Virus record (IMG/VR): IMGVR_UViG_3300027881_000052
Location: 1-30,066 of that record
DNA from: a virus
Strand: one strand, 5' to 3'
DNA length: 30,066 nt
In this document: in pieces, positions 2-7,721 of the stretch
Position numbering within the stretch: the stretch's first letter is position 1
How the letters are laid out: every line of letters begins with the position of its first letter
Made by a program: the position numbers and the translations under genes
Notes under the pieces: model-generated
What the model was told of the DNA's origin: nothing
What the model saw: only the letters and a program-made list of their open reading frames with translations
Databases searched by the model: none

Positions 2-973
2 GACCCGGACTACCCGTTGAAGGTCCTGCGGCAGATCAAGCGCATGAGGACCGGGTCGGCGTTCTACATCTCATCGTTCACCGAGCCGTTCCAGCCGGGC
101 ATCGAGGCGCACTACCACAACACGCAACGCACGGCGGCGGTCGCGGTCGGTGCCGGGCTCCCGGTGTTCTTCCTCACGAGGCAGACGCCGCCGGGTTGGG
201 CGGTCGACGTCGTCCGCAAGAACCCGTTCTCGTACTTCCAGTTCTCGATCAACACGCCGAGGCGGGACCACTGGCGACGCCTCTCACCGCGGGCCGCACC
301 GCTCGACGATCAAGTGGAGGCGATCCGGGAGTTGTCGCGCAAGGGCGTGTACATCTCGGTCCAGGTGAACCCGATCATGAGCGGCGTGACGACGGTCGAG
401 GAGGTCGTGACCCTCATCCACGAGTTGGCTCAGGCCGGAGCCCACCACCTCATCTTCAAGCACATCGAGATCGTCTCACCGGCTGCGAAGCAAATGGTCA
501 AGAAGATGCACCGCCTCTTCCCGGATCGCGGTGCGGACTTCGAGGCGTTGTTCAGCGAGACGATCGGCTCACTGCGCACGATCAAGGAGGGGTATCGCAA
601 GTCAGCGCTCGACCGCTACCTCATCGAGACGAGAGCGGCCGGAGTCACGATGGGGCTCTGCTACGAGTACGAGTACGGACGAGACGAGAGCGGCAAGGTG
701 GTCGACCGAGCCGGGGTCAGTCTCGGTCCGAAGTACACCACCGGAGATCAGTGCCACGGTCGCAAGGTCCCGATGTTCAGCCGACCGTCGCCGGACCGAC
801 CGTTCGCGCCGATCACGGTCTGCGATCCCGGCGGCTGTCTGTACTGCGCTGACCATCACGGCGGCGTCGATCAGGTCCCGTGCGGGACCGCACTGCTCGG
901 CGAGGCGACGGCGCTCAAGCCGAGAGACTACCGGGAGCCAGCATGGGCCAAGCACCGCCTTCCGATCCGCTGA
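2..973 (+). CDS. Radical SAM enzyme, spore-photoproduct-lyase-like (5' end outside window)
   Basis: The frame is already open at the left edge, so only the C-terminal 323 residues are seen. The TTG at 17 is not taken as the start. A segment near nt 205-400 resembles the middle of SPL-type radical SAM enzymes: 'FSINTPRRDHWRRLSPRAAP' is followed by a predicted helix and 'ISVQVNPIMSG'. The 'SFTEPFQPG' stretch near nt 74-100 also fits this family. The CxxxCxxC motif that binds the radical 4Fe-4S cluster must lie upstream and cannot be checked. The C-terminus is cysteine-rich, with Cys codons at 659, 752, 821, 836, 845 and 881, including C-x4-C-x2-C, which suggests an auxiliary metal or Fe-S site. 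It sits directly before a thymine-modification transferase and kinase, so the likely role is rearranging a thymine adduct in DNA, as the phage M6 radical SAM isomerase does. A photoproduct-repair enzyme is the alternative. The family call is good; the substrate is inferred. Confidence 0.75.
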   Translation, partial: DPDYPLKVLRQIKRMRTGSAFYISSFTEPFQPGIEAHYHNTQRTAAVAVGAGLPVFFLTRQTPPGWAVDVVRKNPFSYFQFSINTPRRDHWRRLSPRAAPLDDQVEAIRELSRKGVYISVQVNPIMSGVTTVEEVVTLIHELAQAGAHHLIFKHIEIVSPAAKQMVKKMHRLFPDRGADFEALFSETIGSLRTIKEGYRKSALDRYLIETRAAGVTMGLCYEYEYGRDESGKVVDRAGVSLGPKYTTGDQCHGRKVPMFSRPSPDRPFAPITVCDPGGCLYCADHHGGVDQVPCGTALLGEATALKPRDYREPAWAKHRLPIR

Positions 974-1755
974 CGTGGCAGGAGTTCGGAGCCGCACTGC
1001 TCGACACCGAGGACCTCGACCCGGTCTACGTGGCGGTGGCGGGTGCCGGGCTCGACGAGGATCAACTGAGCCGGTGGCTGCTCGCGTACTGGTGCTTCTA
1101 CTCGGCGGCGACGGCGTCGGACGTCTCTGACGCAGTCTCGTTCTGGGGTGCGATGCTCGACGAGTTCGACACCAAGGAGCGAGGGTTCGAGCGTCGGCAC
1201 TTCCGAGGCGACAAGGCGAGAGCGGCCGTGAGGACGATCATGGAGCAGGGCTCGCCGGAGGAGATCGTGCGATGGATCAGCGGCCGCGAGAACGGGCGGA
1301 CGCCGGAGCGGATCGCGTACGGAGTCGTCGCCGATCGGGTGCAGCGGCTCCCAATGTTCGGTCCGTGGATCGCTTGGAAGGCGGCGGACATGCTGGAGCG
1401 GATCGCCGGAGTGCCGGTCATCTTCGACCCGCGAGCGCTCGCAATGTACAAGGACCCGGTCCAGGGTGCGGCGCTCCTGCGTCGCGGCAACTGGCGGGCT
1501 CCGATCACCGACGAGGAGGTGGCGTGGGTCGCCGGTCTCGTCGTGCGGGAGTTCCGCGACCGGGCCGCACCGCCTCGGTACGATCGACCGTTCAACGTCC
1601 AAGAGGCTGAGACGGTCCTGTGCAAATACAAGGCGTACCGTAAGGGGTCCTACCGCGTCGGTAAGGACATCAAGGAGATGCGTAAAGGTCTCGCGCAGAG
1701 CGAGGGTCCAACAGCGGCCAGAGTCCTCTCTGCGTGCCCTACGGAGGTCACATGA
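943..1755 (+). CDS. aGPT-PPlase-type / amino acid:DNA transferase-like thymine modification enzyme
   Basis: A 270-residue, mostly helical protein. It carries the blocks I associate with the alpha-glutamyl/putrescinyl thymine pyrophosphorylase superfamily of phage base-modification enzymes: 'RWLLAYWCFYSAATAS' at residues 44-59, 'ERRHFRG' at 83-89, 'GPWIAWKAADMLER' at 140-153, and a C-terminal 'ETVLCKYKAYRKG' followed by 'VGKDI' at about 223-243. Family members replace the phosphate of phosphorylated 5-hydroxymethyluracil in DNA with an amino acid or polyamine, giving a hypermodified thymine. I cannot assign the clade or the nucleophile. The ATG at 943 is preceded by GGGAG. The frame is open further upstream (to 880), but that part overlaps the radical SAM gene and looks like shadow sequence. 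The gene overlaps the previous one by 31 bases and its stop overlaps the kinase start. A related helical domain also occurs in 5-hmdU DNA kinases, so a kinase accessory role is the main alternative. Confidence 0.78.
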   Translation: MGQAPPSDPLTWQEFGAALLDTEDLDPVYVAVAGAGLDEDQLSRWLLAYWCFYSAATASDVSDAVSFWGAMLDEFDTKERGFERRHFRGDKARAAVRTIMEQGSPEEIVRWISGRENGRTPERIAYGVVADRVQRLPMFGPWIAWKAADMLERIAGVPVIFDPRALAMYKDPVQGAALLRRGNWRAPITDEEVAWVAGLVVREFRDRAAPPRYDRPFNVQEAETVLCKYKAYRKGSYRVGKDIKEMRKGLAQSEGPTAARVLSACPTEVT

Positions 1756-2318
1756 TGAGAGTCGTCGGCATAGGAGGAGAGCCCGCGGTTGGCAAGACCG
1801 CGGTGATGCATCGAGTGATGGGCCGGATCGGACCCGGATGGAGCGAGCAGAAGCGAGGTCCGCTCGTCTGGATGGCGCTCGGCGACGTGATCGTTCTCGG
1901 GCGCTACCAGTTCGGGAAGTTCGACGGCACTGACCGGCTCTCGATGGCGGTCCAACCGGCGGCGGTCGACGCGATCGGCGCGTGGGCTCAGACCTCGAAG
2001 CTGTCAGTGCTGTTCGAGGGTGACCGCCTCTTCAACGGGTCGTTCCTCGACGCGATCGGGCCGAGGGTTGACGTTGAGCTTCACGCGATCGTCCTCACCG
2101 CTCCGGCGGACGAGATCGCCGAGCGTCACCGGGCTCGGGAGGACTCCCAGAGCGAGATGTTCATCAAGGGTCGGCGGACCAAGTATGCTCGGCTGGCCGA
2201 GCGGGAGCACGTCACGACGATGGTCAACGCCGAGCCCGAGGACATCGACCGGATCGCGTGGCACGTCCTCTCGCTCATCGGCCGGACCGGGATCACCGAC
2301 CTGATTGGAGGCACCTGA
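1752..2318 (+). CDS. P-loop kinase, probable 5-hydroxymethyluracil DNA kinase
   Basis: A 188-residue P-loop NTPase. The Walker A motif is GGEPAVGKT (residues 8-16), a hydrophobic strand leads to 'FEGDRL' (88-93, Walker B-like), and a lid-like basic segment 'RAREDSQSEMFIKGRRTK' (127-144) follows. The size and order fit small phage nucleotide or nucleoside kinases. Next to an aGPT-PPlase/AADT-type gene and a radical SAM gene, the best reading is the kinase that phosphorylates 5-hydroxymethyluracil in DNA, the activation step of thymidine hypermodification. The GGAGG at 1743-1747 serves ATG 1752 (overlapping the previous stop as ATGA) or ATG 1755; the latter has the better spacing and would remove one Met. 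A kinase acting on free nucleotides cannot be excluded from sequence. The enzyme that makes hydroxymethyl-dUMP is not in the window and would be expected upstream. Confidence 0.75.
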   Translation: MMRVVGIGGEPAVGKTAVMHRVMGRIGPGWSEQKRGPLVWMALGDVIVLGRYQFGKFDGTDRLSMAVQPAAVDAIGAWAQTSKLSVLFEGDRLFNGSFLDAIGPRVDVELHAIVLTAPADEIAERHRAREDSQSEMFIKGRRTKYARLAEREHVTTMVNAEPEDIDRIAWHVLSLIGRTGITDLIGGT

Positions 2319-2980
2319 TGCCCAATGGCAACGGCAGGAGACCGCCCAAGGCGACGTCCAAGCAACGAGGCAAGCGCAAGCCGAGGTCGAGGCAGGACGA
2401 CGCGAAGATTGAGCACCGCCGCCGGCAGGTCGCCGCGATGCTCCTCACGCTCCACAACCCGTCGGTGCGGCGGGTCCGCGACGCTCTGACGCAACTGCCG
2501 GAGCCGTTGACCGCCTCGAAGTCGACGATCCACCGCGACATCGTCACGTGCCGGGATGAGTGGGTGACGGAGAGATTCAGAGACATGGACGAGGTCATCG
2601 GCGAGGAACTTGCGAAGCTGTCGATGGCCGAGGAAGCGACGTGGAGAGCGCTCCACCGGTCGGCTCGACCGTCAGTCAAGACCTTCACTCGCACTCGCGA
2701 GATCATGGTGGACGGCGAGCCGAGGACGCTCACCAACACCTACACCGAGACCGTCGAGCGAGAGACCGACCCGCGGCTACTCCGGGCGCTCACCGACATC
2801 ATGGAGCGTCGAGCGAAGATGATCGGGCTGGACGCTCCCAAGGGCATCGACCTGAGCTCCAACGGCAAGCAACTCTCATTCACGGTCGACATCGGCGCTC
2901 CTGACTGGGCTCCGGTCGTGCTGCCGAAGGCGGAGGAGGAGCGGTTGATGCGACTGGAGGCAGGGACCGCAGAGGAGTGA
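2318..2980 (+). CDS. terS: Terminase small subunit
   Basis: A 220-residue protein placed directly before the large terminase. The first 30 residues are very basic. Residues of about 45-80 look like a helix-turn-helix with 'SKSTIHRDI' as a recognition helix, suitable for binding the packaging site. The middle is predicted helical, as in oligomerising small terminases. Near the C-terminus, 'RRAKMIGLDAPKGIDLS' matches a signature seen in many phage small terminases ('R..llGLdaP.k'). The role is to recognise viral DNA and load the large terminase. ATG 2318 overlaps the kinase stop by one base (TGATG) and has GGAGG 6-10 bases upstream. The open frame continues upstream to 2258, but that part lies inside the kinase gene. 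The call rests on context, HTH and the C-terminal signature. Confidence 0.8.
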   Translation: MPNGNGRRPPKATSKQRGKRKPRSRQDDAKIEHRRRQVAAMLLTLHNPSVRRVRDALTQLPEPLTASKSTIHRDIVTCRDEWVTERFRDMDEVIGEELAKLSMAEEATWRALHRSARPSVKTFTRTREIMVDGEPRTLTNTYTETVERETDPRLLRALTDIMERRAKMIGLDAPKGIDLSSNGKQLSFTVDIGAPDWAPVVLPKAEEERLMRLEAGTAEE

Positions 2981-2983
2981 CGC

Positions 2984-4192
2984 GTGCCAGCGAACGTCGA
3001 GATCACGTACCGGCGTCCACGCTGGCTCTACCCAAAGCAGTTCGAGGCGATCTACGACCCGGCTCGGTTCGTGTTCATCGAGGCGTCGACGAAGAGCGGC
3101 AAGACCGTCGGGTGCATCTCGTGGCTCGCTGAGAAGGCGGTCGGCGGAGTCGAGGGCAACGAGTTCTGGTGGGTGGCTCCGATCTACGCTCAGGCGAAGA
3201 TCGCGTATCGCCGGATGAAGCGGTTCCTGCCGCGGGATCACTACAAGGCGAACGACTCCGATCTGCGGCTCACGCTCGTCGTCAACGGTGCGGTGATCGT
3301 GTTCAAGGGCTCGGACAATCCGGACTCTCTCTACGGCGAGGACGTCTGGGCTTGCGTCGTCGACGAGGCGAGCCGGTGCAAGGAAGAGGCGTGGGTGGCG
3401 ATCCGGTCGACGCTCACCGCGACCCGCGGGCCGGTCCGGATCATCGGCAACGTCAAGGGTCGCAAGAACTGGGCGTACCGTCTCGGCCAGTTGGCGAAGG
3501 CCGGGCACGCCGGATACGCTTACCACCGCATCACCGCGGTCGACGCGATCCGGGCCGGAGTCCTCGTACTGGAGGAGATCGAGGACGCGCAGATGGTGCT
3601 CACTCCCGACGTGTTCAACGAACTGTACATGGCGATCGCGACCGAGGACGGTGCCAACCCGTTCGGGCTCGTCGCGATCGAGAACTGCGTTGCGCCGATC
3701 GCCGACGCTGAGCCAGTCGTCTGGGGTTGGGATCTCGGCCGCAAGCAAGACTGGACGGTGGGCGTGGGGCTCGACGAGTTCAAGCGCACCTGCCGCTTCA
3801 CTCGGTTCCAGAGGTCGTGGCCGGAGACAACGCAAGCGATCCTCAACGAGACCGGCGCTGCGAAGGCGCTCGTGGACGGCACCGGCGTCGGCGATCCGAT
3901 CGTGCAGGACCTCCAGAAGCTATCCGACGAGGACAACTTCGAGTCGTTCATCTTCACCTCCAAGAGCAAGCAGCAACTCATCGAGGGGCTCTGCCTCGAC
4001 GTCCAGCAGGGTGCGATCATCTTTCCGGACGGCGACATCAGAGACGAGATGGAGAACTTCGAGTACGTTCACACGAGGACCGGGATCAAGTACGAGGCAC
4101 CGCCAGGGCTGCATGACGACTGCGTCTGCGCTCTCGCTCTCGCTCGGCTCCGGCACGAGCAAGGCGGGTGGGCTCCGGCCGCGGCGTGGTAG
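2984..4192 (+). CDS. terL: Terminase large subunit (packaging ATPase and nuclease)
   Basis: A 402-residue protein with both terminase domains. In the ATPase domain, Walker A is ASTKSGKT (residues 34-41), Walker B is 'WACVVDE' ending at D127-E128, and 'IIGNVKGRKNW' (153-163) fits the coupling motif. In the RNase H-like nuclease domain, acidic residues lie at D250 ('WGWDLG'), D298 ('LVDGTGVGD') and D378/D379 ('HDDCVCALALA'). The product docks on the portal, drives DNA into the prohead and cuts it. Start is GTG 2984, three bases after the terS stop, with GGAG sites in the preceding coding end; no ATG gives a better N-terminus. At about 400 residues it is at the short end for the family but complete in motifs. 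Confidence 0.93.
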   Translation: MPANVEITYRRPRWLYPKQFEAIYDPARFVFIEASTKSGKTVGCISWLAEKAVGGVEGNEFWWVAPIYAQAKIAYRRMKRFLPRDHYKANDSDLRLTLVVNGAVIVFKGSDNPDSLYGEDVWACVVDEASRCKEEAWVAIRSTLTATRGPVRIIGNVKGRKNWAYRLGQLAKAGHAGYAYHRITAVDAIRAGVLVLEEIEDAQMVLTPDVFNELYMAIATEDGANPFGLVAIENCVAPIADAEPVVWGWDLGRKQDWTVGVGLDEFKRTCRFTRFQRSWPETTQAILNETGAAKALVDGTGVGDPIVQDLQKLSDEDNFESFIFTSKSKQQLIEGLCLDVQQGAIIFPDGDIRDEMENFEYVHTRTGIKYEAPPGLHDDCVCALALARLRHEQGGWAPAAAW

Positions 4193-5168: not shown

Positions 5169-7721
5169 ATGGCGCTGACGAAGGAAGGTCAATACACCGG
5201 GTCCGGGGTCGATGTCTCCTCGGTGGACGTGACCTCAGTCGGGCAGTTCACCGACTGCCTCTACCTCGTGGTGGTTTCGTCGAAGCCGAGCAAGACCGTC
5301 TCGTCGGTTTCGAACACGGGCGGGTTGTCCTTCGTTCAGAAGAAACGACAGTGCGGCGGTCGGCAGCAGACCAGCATCGAGGTCTGGGAGGCGCGAGGGA
5401 CGCCGAGCGGATCGTTCACTGTCACCGCGAACCTGAGCGCCAGCACGTCGGCGGTCTGCGTCTCGGTCATCGCCATCACCGGGACCGACGATACGACGCC
5501 GACGCAGAACTACATCGGCAACAACACCGTCGGCGACAACGACGCGACCTGCTCGGGCGGGACCGACGCCGATCCATCCTCATACTCGCAGAGCATCAGC
5601 GACTCGTCCTCGTGGTTGTTCACCTGCATTGAGTTCCGCAACAAGACGCTGACGCTCGACTCGGCGTGTACCGAGATCACCGACATCAGCGCCAACAGCG
5701 GCGGGTCCGAGGCGAACCACAAGACCGCCTACGATACGACGCCGTCGACACCGACGCAGACCATCGACCACTCCGACAGCGATGTGGACTATTGCCAGAT
5801 CGGTTGCGAGATCGTCGAGGCGGCGGCGGGTGTGACGCTCGTCATCGCCGACTGCGCTCACGCTCACGCCGCAGACAACCTCGTCCTCGTCGAGAACAAG
5901 ACGCTCGCAATCAACGACGCGACCCACGCTCACGCTGCGGAGTCGCCGACGCTCGTCCAGCATCACGCACTGGCGATCGACGCCGCATTGCACAGTCACA
6001 CGGCCGACGCTCTCGACCTCGCGGTGACGCATCATCTCGCGATCCAAGAGGCGACTCACGGGCACACCGCACAGAACGTCGTCCTGTCGGTCACGTTCCT
6101 CCTCGCGATCGCCGGAGCCGTTCACGGTCACACGGCCGCGAACGTCGACCTGACGCAGCATCACGTCCTCTCGATCGACTCGGCGCTGCACTCGCACACG
6201 GCTGACAACGTCGATCTCGTTGAGGGTCACGTCCTCGCGATCGACTCGGCGATCCATGCTCACTCGGCGGAGTCTCTCGACCTCTCGCAGAGCCACGTCC
6301 TGAGCATCGAGGATGCTCTGCATGGGCACTCGGCCGACAACGTGGACCTCTCGGTCCAGCACATCCTCGCGATCGCAGACGCACTCCACGGTCACTCCGC
6401 AGACAATCTCGATCTCGTCCAAGCGCACGTCCTCGTCGTCGCCGATTGCCTCCACGCGCACACTGCCGAGAACCTCGACCTTGTCGAGTCCGGAGCGCTC
6501 CAGATCCAGTCGGCTCTCCACGGTCATTCTGCCGACTCACTCGACCTGATTCAGCATCACGTCCTCGTCGTCGCCGACGCGATTCACGCGCACACGGCGG
6601 ACAATCTCGATCTGGTAGAGGGGCTGACACTCGCGATCGACGACTGTCTGCACGGGCACACCGCCGACAACGTGACGCTCGCGGTCACTCATGTCCTGGC
6701 GATCGCTGATTGCCTCCACGCTCACTCGGCCGAGGTCCCGACGCTCGCGGTCACGCACGTCCTCGCGATCAACGATGCGATCCACTTGCACTCGGCGGAC
6801 AACCTCGACCTCGTGACCACCGGCGCTCTCGTGATCCAGGCCGCTCTCCACGGCCACACTGCCGACAATCTCGATCTCGTCCAACACCACGTCCTCTCGA
6901 TCGCCGACTGCCTCCACAGCCACTCGGCCGAGTCGCTCGACCTCGCACAGACGCACACGCTGGCGATCGACGCGACGACTCACGCGCACTCAGCCGACTC
7001 TCTCGACCTGACGCAAGCTCACGTGCTGGCGATCGCCGAGTGTCTCCATGCGCACGCCGCGGACAACATCGACCTCGCCGTGCCGGGGGTCCTGGAGATC
7101 CAGTCGTGCGCCCACGCTCACACGGCCGACTCTCCGGCTCTGACGCAGCATCACGTCCTCGCAATCGCATCCTCGGTCCACGCTCACTCTGCGGACAACC
7201 TCGACCTCGTCGAAGGGCTCACGCTCGCGATCGCGGACTGCGTCCACGGCCACACTGCCGACGAGGTGACGCTGACTCAGGCGCACGTCCTCTCGATCGA
7301 CGACACGGTGCACGCTCACGCTGCCGACAACGTCGACCTCGCGGTGACTCACGTACTCGCGATCGCCGGGTGCGTCCACGACCACTCGGCCGACAACGTC
7401 GCTCTCGTCCAGCATCACGTCCTCGTCATTGACGGCTGTCTCCACGCTCACGCCGCCGACGAGGTCCCGATCACGGCGACCAACTACCTTGAGATTCAGT
7501 CGACGGTCCACGCGCACTCGGTGGACAACATCGACCTCGTCCAGCATCATTACCTCGCGATCGACGACGCTCATCACGGTCACACGGCTGACTCGCTCGT
7601 GCTCGGCGGTGCTGAGCAGTTCCGGTCGCGGCAGGTCGTCCGGGCGGAGGTCCCGTTGCAACAGACGGTCCGAGCCGAGGTCAACTTCCGGCAGACGATC
7701 CGAGCGCAGATGAACAAATGA
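5169..7721 (+). CDS. Large repeat protein with 27 His-x-His repeats, probable virion fibre
   Basis: An 850-residue protein in three parts. Residues 1-223 are Ser/Thr-rich with alternating hydrophobics, consistent with a beta-sandwich attachment domain. Residues 224-817 are 27 back-to-back 22-residue repeats with approximate consensus L-A-I-x-D-x-x-H-x-H-[STA]-A-D-N-[LV]-D-L-V-Q-x-H-V; His-x-His is kept in every copy. Residues 818-850 hold about three short repeats (VVRAEV, TVRAEV, TIRAQM). Known trimeric phage fibres such as T4 gp37 bind iron through HxH motifs from three chains, so a metal-stabilised fibre is attractive but inferred. Start ATG 5169 lies just after the preceding stop with only a weak ribosome site, suggesting coupled translation. 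It could be a head fibre, tail fibre or decoration protein; the repeats are certain, the role is not. Confidence 0.85.
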   Translation: MALTKEGQYTGSGVDVSSVDVTSVGQFTDCLYLVVVSSKPSKTVSSVSNTGGLSFVQKKRQCGGRQQTSIEVWEARGTPSGSFTVTANLSASTSAVCVSVIAITGTDDTTPTQNYIGNNTVGDNDATCSGGTDADPSSYSQSISDSSSWLFTCIEFRNKTLTLDSACTEITDISANSGGSEANHKTAYDTTPSTPTQTIDHSDSDVDYCQIGCEIVEAAAGVTLVIADCAHAHAADNLVLVENKTLAINDATHAHAAESPTLVQHHALAIDAALHSHTADALDLAVTHHLAIQEATHGHTAQNVVLSVTFLLAIAGAVHGHTAANVDLTQHHVLSIDSALHSHTADNVDLVEGHVLAIDSAIHAHSAESLDLSQSHVLSIEDALHGHSADNVDLSVQHILAIADALHGHSADNLDLVQAHVLVVADCLHAHTAENLDLVESGALQIQSALHGHSADSLDLIQHHVLVVADAIHAHTADNLDLVEGLTLAIDDCLHGHTADNVTLAVTHVLAIADCLHAHSAEVPTLAVTHVLAINDAIHLHSADNLDLVTTGALVIQAALHGHTADNLDLVQHHVLSIADCLHSHSAESLDLAQTHTLAIDATTHAHSADSLDLTQAHVLAIAECLHAHAADNIDLAVPGVLEIQSCAHAHTADSPALTQHHVLAIASSVHAHSADNLDLVEGLTLAIADCVHGHTADEVTLTQAHVLSIDDTVHAHAADNVDLAVTHVLAIAGCVHDHSADNVALVQHHVLVIDGCLHAHAADEVPITATNYLEIQSTVHAHSVDNIDLVQHHYLAIDDAHHGHTADSLVLGGAEQFRSRQVVRAEVPLQQTVRAEVNFRQTIRAQMNK
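5838..7619 (+). repeat. 27 tandem 66-bp coding repeats (22 residues each)
   Basis: The region translates as 27 contiguous 22-residue units. The first unit starts LVIADCAHAH and the last LAIDDAHHGH. DNA copies differ at many third positions and use different His, Ala and Leu codons, while the amino-acid pattern stays constant. This points to old duplications under protein-level selection rather than recent slippage. No unit is broken and no frame change occurs. The units are not separated by spacers, so this is not a CRISPR array. Confidence 0.95.

Follow-up and report, generated by a model that had tools for sequence, protein, structure and literature searches.

A probable M6-like thymine-hypermodification cassette upstream of the terminase genes in a phage genome fragment

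Described hypermodification systems and the phage locus

The DNA of Pseudomonas phage M6 contains 5-(2-aminoethyl)deoxyuridine (5-NedU), which is formed from 5hmdU via a 5hmdU DNA kinase, and it is resistant to about 48% of the Type II enzymes tested (PMC6449724). The M6 enzyme set consists of gp51 (AADT2), gp52 (a PLP enzyme), gp53 (a radical SAM enzyme, rSAM), and gp54 (a kinase). A five-gene locus of Rhodococcus phage Tonitrus (PP978825) was interpreted by its authors as serving thymidine hypermodification (PMC11955845). In Tonitrus, the order ParB-TET/JBP-AADT2-kinase was found upstream of the terminase. TET/JBP-started hypermodification in phages had reportedly been predicted already by Iyer in 2013.

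The window analyzed here is an entire IMG/VR record of 30,066 bp, a phage genome fragment with a GC content of 65%. From left to right, it carries a modification cassette, packaging genes, and genes for the portal, capsid protease, major capsid protein, and tape measure. With the 5-NedU pathway of M6 (gp51-gp54 and gp58), the window shares an AADT2, a radical SAM enzyme of the gp53 type, a P-loop kinase, and the clustering of these genes. Unlike in M6, the order is rSAM-AADT2-kinase immediately before the terminase, and the kinase falls outside the HMUDK family. Neither AADT1 nor a thymidylate synthase (TS)-like dUMP hydroxymethylase nor a PLP-dependent decarboxylase was seen in the 30 kb of the contig, which is cut at its left end. 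A TET/JBP dioxygenase (PF12851) and a ParB-like protein were likewise not found within these 30 kb, and the expected place of both is beyond the left edge, as in the IMG/VR loci L176 and L318 for ParB. Compared with Tonitrus, the window has the same succession of AADT2 and a kinase of the same class upstream of the terminase; Tonitrus differs in possessing TET/JBP-like and ParB-like proteins, in lacking any radical SAM gene within the part read, and in its AADT2, which is only 25% identical to that of the window.

The first-pass annotation had proposed an M6-like thymine-hypermodification cassette at this place, and the proposal is well supported by the protein families, the PDB matches, and the recurring enzyme set. 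We consider it probable, judging from these sequence relationships, that the left end of the contig is the right-hand part of an operon with M6 chemistry, located just upstream of the terminase genes, in which a starter enzyme is followed by the action of the kinase, the AADT, and the radical SAM enzyme.

Genes of the cassette and its surroundings

Three overlapping reading frames, as previously annotated, were confirmed on the + strand at 2-973, 943-1755, and 1752-2318, and the consecutive overlaps were 31, 4, and 1 bases, the last one with the gene at 2318-2980. The earlier assignments of the first two to a radical SAM enzyme and an AADT-type transferase also held. The product of 2-973 matched PHROG 9252, to which M6 gp53 belongs, in a profile search (E = 1.9e-78) and was 41% identical to M6 gp53, 63% to the rSAM of L010, and 58% to that of L014. 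Its N-terminus is missing, as the frame is open at the left edge of the contig: alignment to the proteins of M6, RHph_I65, and Pam3 placed approximately 150 residues off the contig, including the CxxxCxxC iron-sulphur motif (CTVGCAFC). Six cysteines of the sequenced C-terminal part were invariant over five relatives. PDB sequence searches with the rSAM profile found nothing, and no relative of the window rSAM was detected in the sequenced-genome contigs searched. By homology, this enzyme is predicted to rearrange an amino-acid adduct on thymine.

The product of 943-1755 was assigned to the amino acid:DNA transferases of the AADT2 (aGPT-PPlase2) type. It matched Pfam ADDT (5.4e-15), PHROG 6364 (1.3e-61), and PDB entries 8z2m/8z2n, whose molecule name is 'Glycinyltransferase' (1.8e-45), and it kept every column that was invariant among six aligned relatives. 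We take 8z2m to be an M6-type glycinyltransferase and M6 gp51 to be a glycinyltransferase of the AADT2 type; a transferase of the family used in the 5-NedU route is present in the window. Homologues were found in 99 isolate phage records, M6 and many relatives included, all with less than 60% identity. Scans for the window AADT2 and rSAM, by single protein or by alignment, yielded nearest relatives of 47-63% identity and no contig that overlapped the window. A search with the major capsid protein returned one relative, L395, without an informative left flank.

The product of 1752-2318 was previously thought to be a P-loop kinase of the 5-hmdU kinase family of M6; the former part was retained, and the latter was not. 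In Pfam, the protein matched Ploopntkinase3 (PF18751) at 6e-5, i.e., below the cut-off, and general AAA families, with no match to HMUDK (PF18748), and the M6-type HMUDK model did not match even at E 10. HMUDK was matched by M6 gp54 (7.7e-18) and the RHph_I65 kinase (6.3e-11); the kinases of Tonitrus, Terij, and Suffolk matched Ploopntkinase3. The identity of the window kinase was 19% to M6 gp54, 38% or 29% to Tonitrus gp7 depending on the alignment, 38-40% to the L010 kinase, and 34-37% to the L037 kinase. It scored 222.6 bits against the model of its own class (KinPL3), the seeds of which included the window kinase itself. By sequence, the enzyme is thus placed in a Ploopntkinase3-like class and not in the HMUDK family. 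The AlphaFold (AF2) model had a pLDDT of 93 and an intact Walker A, and its best structure match was hCINAP (adenylate kinase 6; Z 13.1), with a Clostridium thermocellum polynucleotide kinase also matched (Z 11.9). The predicted nucleotide/polynucleotide kinase fold, from which the substrate is not readable, is compatible with phosphorylation of a nucleic acid, and we propose that the protein is the 5-hydroxymethyl-U DNA kinase of TET/JBP- and rSAM2-type cassettes. We know of no enzyme of this class with tested activity.

The gene at 2318-2980 (+ strand) encodes a probable small terminase or helix-turn-helix (HTH) protein with weak Pfam matches. It precedes the gene for the terminase large subunit (TerL; 2984-4192, + strand; PHROG 2, 1.9e-29), which has IMG/VR relatives of up to 62% identity. 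The HTH gene is outside the pathway itself and places the cassette directly upstream of the packaging genes. Matches of 26-31% were found between its product and those of genes downstream of rSAM2, a second radical SAM protein described below (L243:11310-11915, L271:6648-7244, L280:11224-11820, and L286:13194-13832), hinting at an equal operon position beside the terminase. Between the terminase and portal genes, the window also encodes an 850-aa protein (5169-7721) with at least 24 head-to-tail units of 22 residues (HAHTADNLDLVQHHVLAIADCL-like), and this protein matched no Pfam family.

Kinase class and the enzyme that starts the pathway

Loci were gathered from IMG/VR with four separate baits (AADT2, kinase, rSAM, and rSAM2), all of their open frames were scored by small family models, and each distinct kinase was counted once. 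Kinase classes were scored with seed-only models because an iterated kinase model took in the HMUDK family. The survey comprised 188 deduplicated loci with a typed kinase, 94 of which were of the window class. A TS-like hydroxymethylase accompanied 70 of the HMUDK kinases, TET/JBP one, and rSAM2 one, with no source seen in 22. Among the window-class loci, TET/JBP was present in 58 and rSAM2 in 19, no source was seen in 17, and the TS-like enzyme was found in none. Six more kinases, which were untypable, all lay beside rSAM2. The association between kinase class and hydroxymethyl source gave a Fisher p of 7e-41, a statistic that ignores shared ancestry. The association is not absolute, since in L034 (8546-12065) the kinase next to ParB-TET/JBP-AADT2 is of the HMUDK type. 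The hypermodification cassettes of L052, L074, L058, and L029 each contained two or three kinase genes.

Pfam searches of whole contigs agreed with these counts. Tet_JBP exceeded its cut-off in the seven TET contigs and in no others, and the thymidylate-synthase family was detected in none of 29 contigs that were of the window class or carried rSAM2, including those of 266 kb and 141 kb. As a control, the same family was recovered in all eight records that were of the HMUDK class and had a TS-like gene, and in none of four TET-associated records.

The M6-like enzyme set with a KinPL3 kinase was found in the sequence-related cassettes of L010, L014, L037, L174, L176, L177, L180, and L183, and a PLP enzyme was present in most same-class relatives (e.g., L010, L014, and L176). 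The closest cassettes, those of L010 and L014, were both ordered AADT2-PLP-rSAM-kinase. L010 and L176 share AADT2, rSAM, and KinPL3 with the window but differ from it in gene order and in the presence of the PLP enzyme, their genes forming an AADT2-PLP-rSAM-KinPL3 chain; L176 adds ParB and TET/JBP, and L010 has rSAM2 instead of TET/JBP. In an rSAM tree, the window fell into the starred clade (SH-aLRT 98, 14 rows) together with all six rSAM2-type rows, two of the four TET/JBP-type rows, one TS-type row, and four rows whose source was unseen. As this tree was made without kinase sequences, it is independent support for the starter assignment. Furthermore, L318, whose TerL is a sister of that of the window (59% identity), showed the upstream order ParB-TET/JBP-ADDT-x-kinase-HTH-TerL, with Pfam matches to TET/JBP (PF12851, 3e-24), ADDT (2.8e-7), and Ploopntkinase3 (1.7e-20). 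L318 differs from the window in having no M6-type radical SAM gene and a divergent ADDT; judged by TerL, its genes occupy the place equivalent to the window cassette, and it is the window layout with the starter visible.

A hydroxymethyl-dUMP synthase had been expected to the left of the window genes, an expectation that the survey did not bear out. Because of the co-occurrence with the kinase class and the layout of the TerL sister, TET/JBP or rSAM2 is most likely encoded in the missing left part instead. The chances that the starter is TET/JBP seem to us about evenly balanced, and rSAM2 is a tentative second candidate. In either case, hydroxylation in the window phage is probably post-replicative.

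rSAM2 is usual in window-class cassettes without TET/JBP, and the two never co-occurred (26 rSAM2 loci and 59 TET/JBP loci). Like TET/JBP, it adjoins ParB-like genes, and it keeps CxxxCxxC. Its structural model (pLDDT 92) matched spore photoproduct lyase, which works on DNA thymine, with a Foldseek value of 1.3e-8 and Z 20.1, the next family reaching 15.9; when the rSAM2 profile was searched against PDB sequences, nothing was found. In sequenced genomes, rSAM2 gave 22 clear matches, mostly in rumen or gut anaerobes and including Bacteroides, Prevotella, Clostridia, and Methanobrevibacter, in a collection in which gut genomes are over-represented; three of the matches were MAGs with unstated oxygen preference. 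It was absent from isolate phage records, and the hosts of isolate phages with TET/JBP were aerobic. rSAM2 is perhaps an oxygen-independent alternative to the oxygen-requiring TET/JBP, a tentative reading with which all of these observations agree. Overall, rSAM2 (L235-L314 and L396-L421) was widespread and ParB-linked, and the phages and prophages carrying it belonged mostly to anaerobes.

Some phage radical SAM genes (L003:2427-4244, L037:4648-7681, and L014:4683-7279) carry inteins, located at the CxxxCxxC motif or beside it. The L003 intein lies just ahead of the third cysteine, the rSAM of L037 has two inteins, and the rSAM2 of L014 has one, which is split by further open frames.

Proposed pathway, alternatives, and implications

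From the sequences, we infer the following catalytic steps, amino acid, product, and benefit for the window phage, and the order of the steps and the use of glycine follow the M6 pathway and the name given to the molecule in 8z2m. An off-contig enzyme, most likely a TET/JBP dioxygenase and next rSAM2, would turn thymine in phage DNA into 5-hydroxymethyluracil. The kinase (1752-2318) would phosphorylate the hydroxymethyl group, and the AADT (943-1755) would swap the phosphate for an amino acid, which would be glycine if the enzyme resembles M6 gp51. Rearrangement of the adduct would then fall to the radical SAM enzyme (2-973), and its decarboxylation to 5-(2-aminoethyl)-dU to a PLP enzyme encoded off the contig. 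The end product is not readable from sequence, and 5-aminoethyl-dU is our best guess. The likely benefit to the phage would be resistance to restriction. As a wider reading, we tentatively suggest that window-class phages activate thymine after replication by interchangeable starters, TET/JBP in aerobes or rSAM2 in anaerobes, and that the window phage uses one of these before entering the amino-acid route of M6.

The pathway could differ from this proposal at its entry. A TS-like hydroxymethylase encoded off the left end might supply 5-hydroxymethyl-dUMP to the nucleotide pool; the polymerase would build this nucleotide into DNA, and its subsequent modification would be identical to that in M6. 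Such a combination exists, as M6, RHph_I65, and Pam3 have rSAM, AADT2, and the TS-like enzyme within about 6 kb, and 46 of the 67 rSAM loci with HMUDK kinases carry the TS-like enzyme. However, the window kinase is of the other class, in which no TS-like partner was found among the 94 loci, in agreement with the whole contigs and their positive controls. In addition, AADT1, which was not seen in the window, was present in 45 of the 46 TS-type rSAM loci but in none of the 13 of the TET/JBP or rSAM2 type. We therefore regard a TS-like starter as unlikely.

Two other readings concern the function of the genes. The kinase might serve DNA packaging, leaving the cassette without a dedicated 5-hmU kinase: its best PHROG match was PHROG 800, 'terminase small subunit' (1.6e-10), and in cluster B mycobacteriophages such as Suffolk the related kinase adjoins the terminase, with no AADT, TET/JBP, or other modification gene in the stretches read. 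Against this stand the predicted nucleotide/polynucleotide kinase fold with its intact Walker A and the HTH gene at 2318-2980, which is a better small-terminase candidate. Public records label such kinases 'terminase small subunit' or 'adenylate kinase' (PHROG 800; M6 gp54, Suffolk gene 1, and Cr30 gp114), and these labels are probably names transferred between records, since M6 gp54 bears the terminase label yet matches HMUDK. A packaging role is thus very improbable. Finally, the operon could be a decayed or repurposed remnant, in which the radical SAM enzyme and transferase act elsewhere than on DNA thymine or nothing functions at all. The radical SAM gene is indeed incomplete in the contig, but the truncation is the contig edge and not an internal stop, the family-invariant residues are kept in the sequenced part, the overlaps between the reading frames are tight, and many different contigs carry this gene set. 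We consider this reading the least probable.

The preferred reading, an M6-type cassette started by in-DNA oxidation, would tell two entry routes apart: a pre-made hydroxymethyl nucleotide with an HMUDK kinase, and oxidation within DNA with a Ploopntkinase3-like kinase, both leading into the same AADT2/radical SAM/PLP chemistry. It offers a testable role for a kinase family that often bears terminase or adenylate kinase names. It also makes rSAM2, which is widespread among phages of anaerobes, a candidate for an oxygen-free substitute for TET/JBP; if this is true, rSAM2 would allow the methyl group of thymine in DNA to be functionalised without oxygen.
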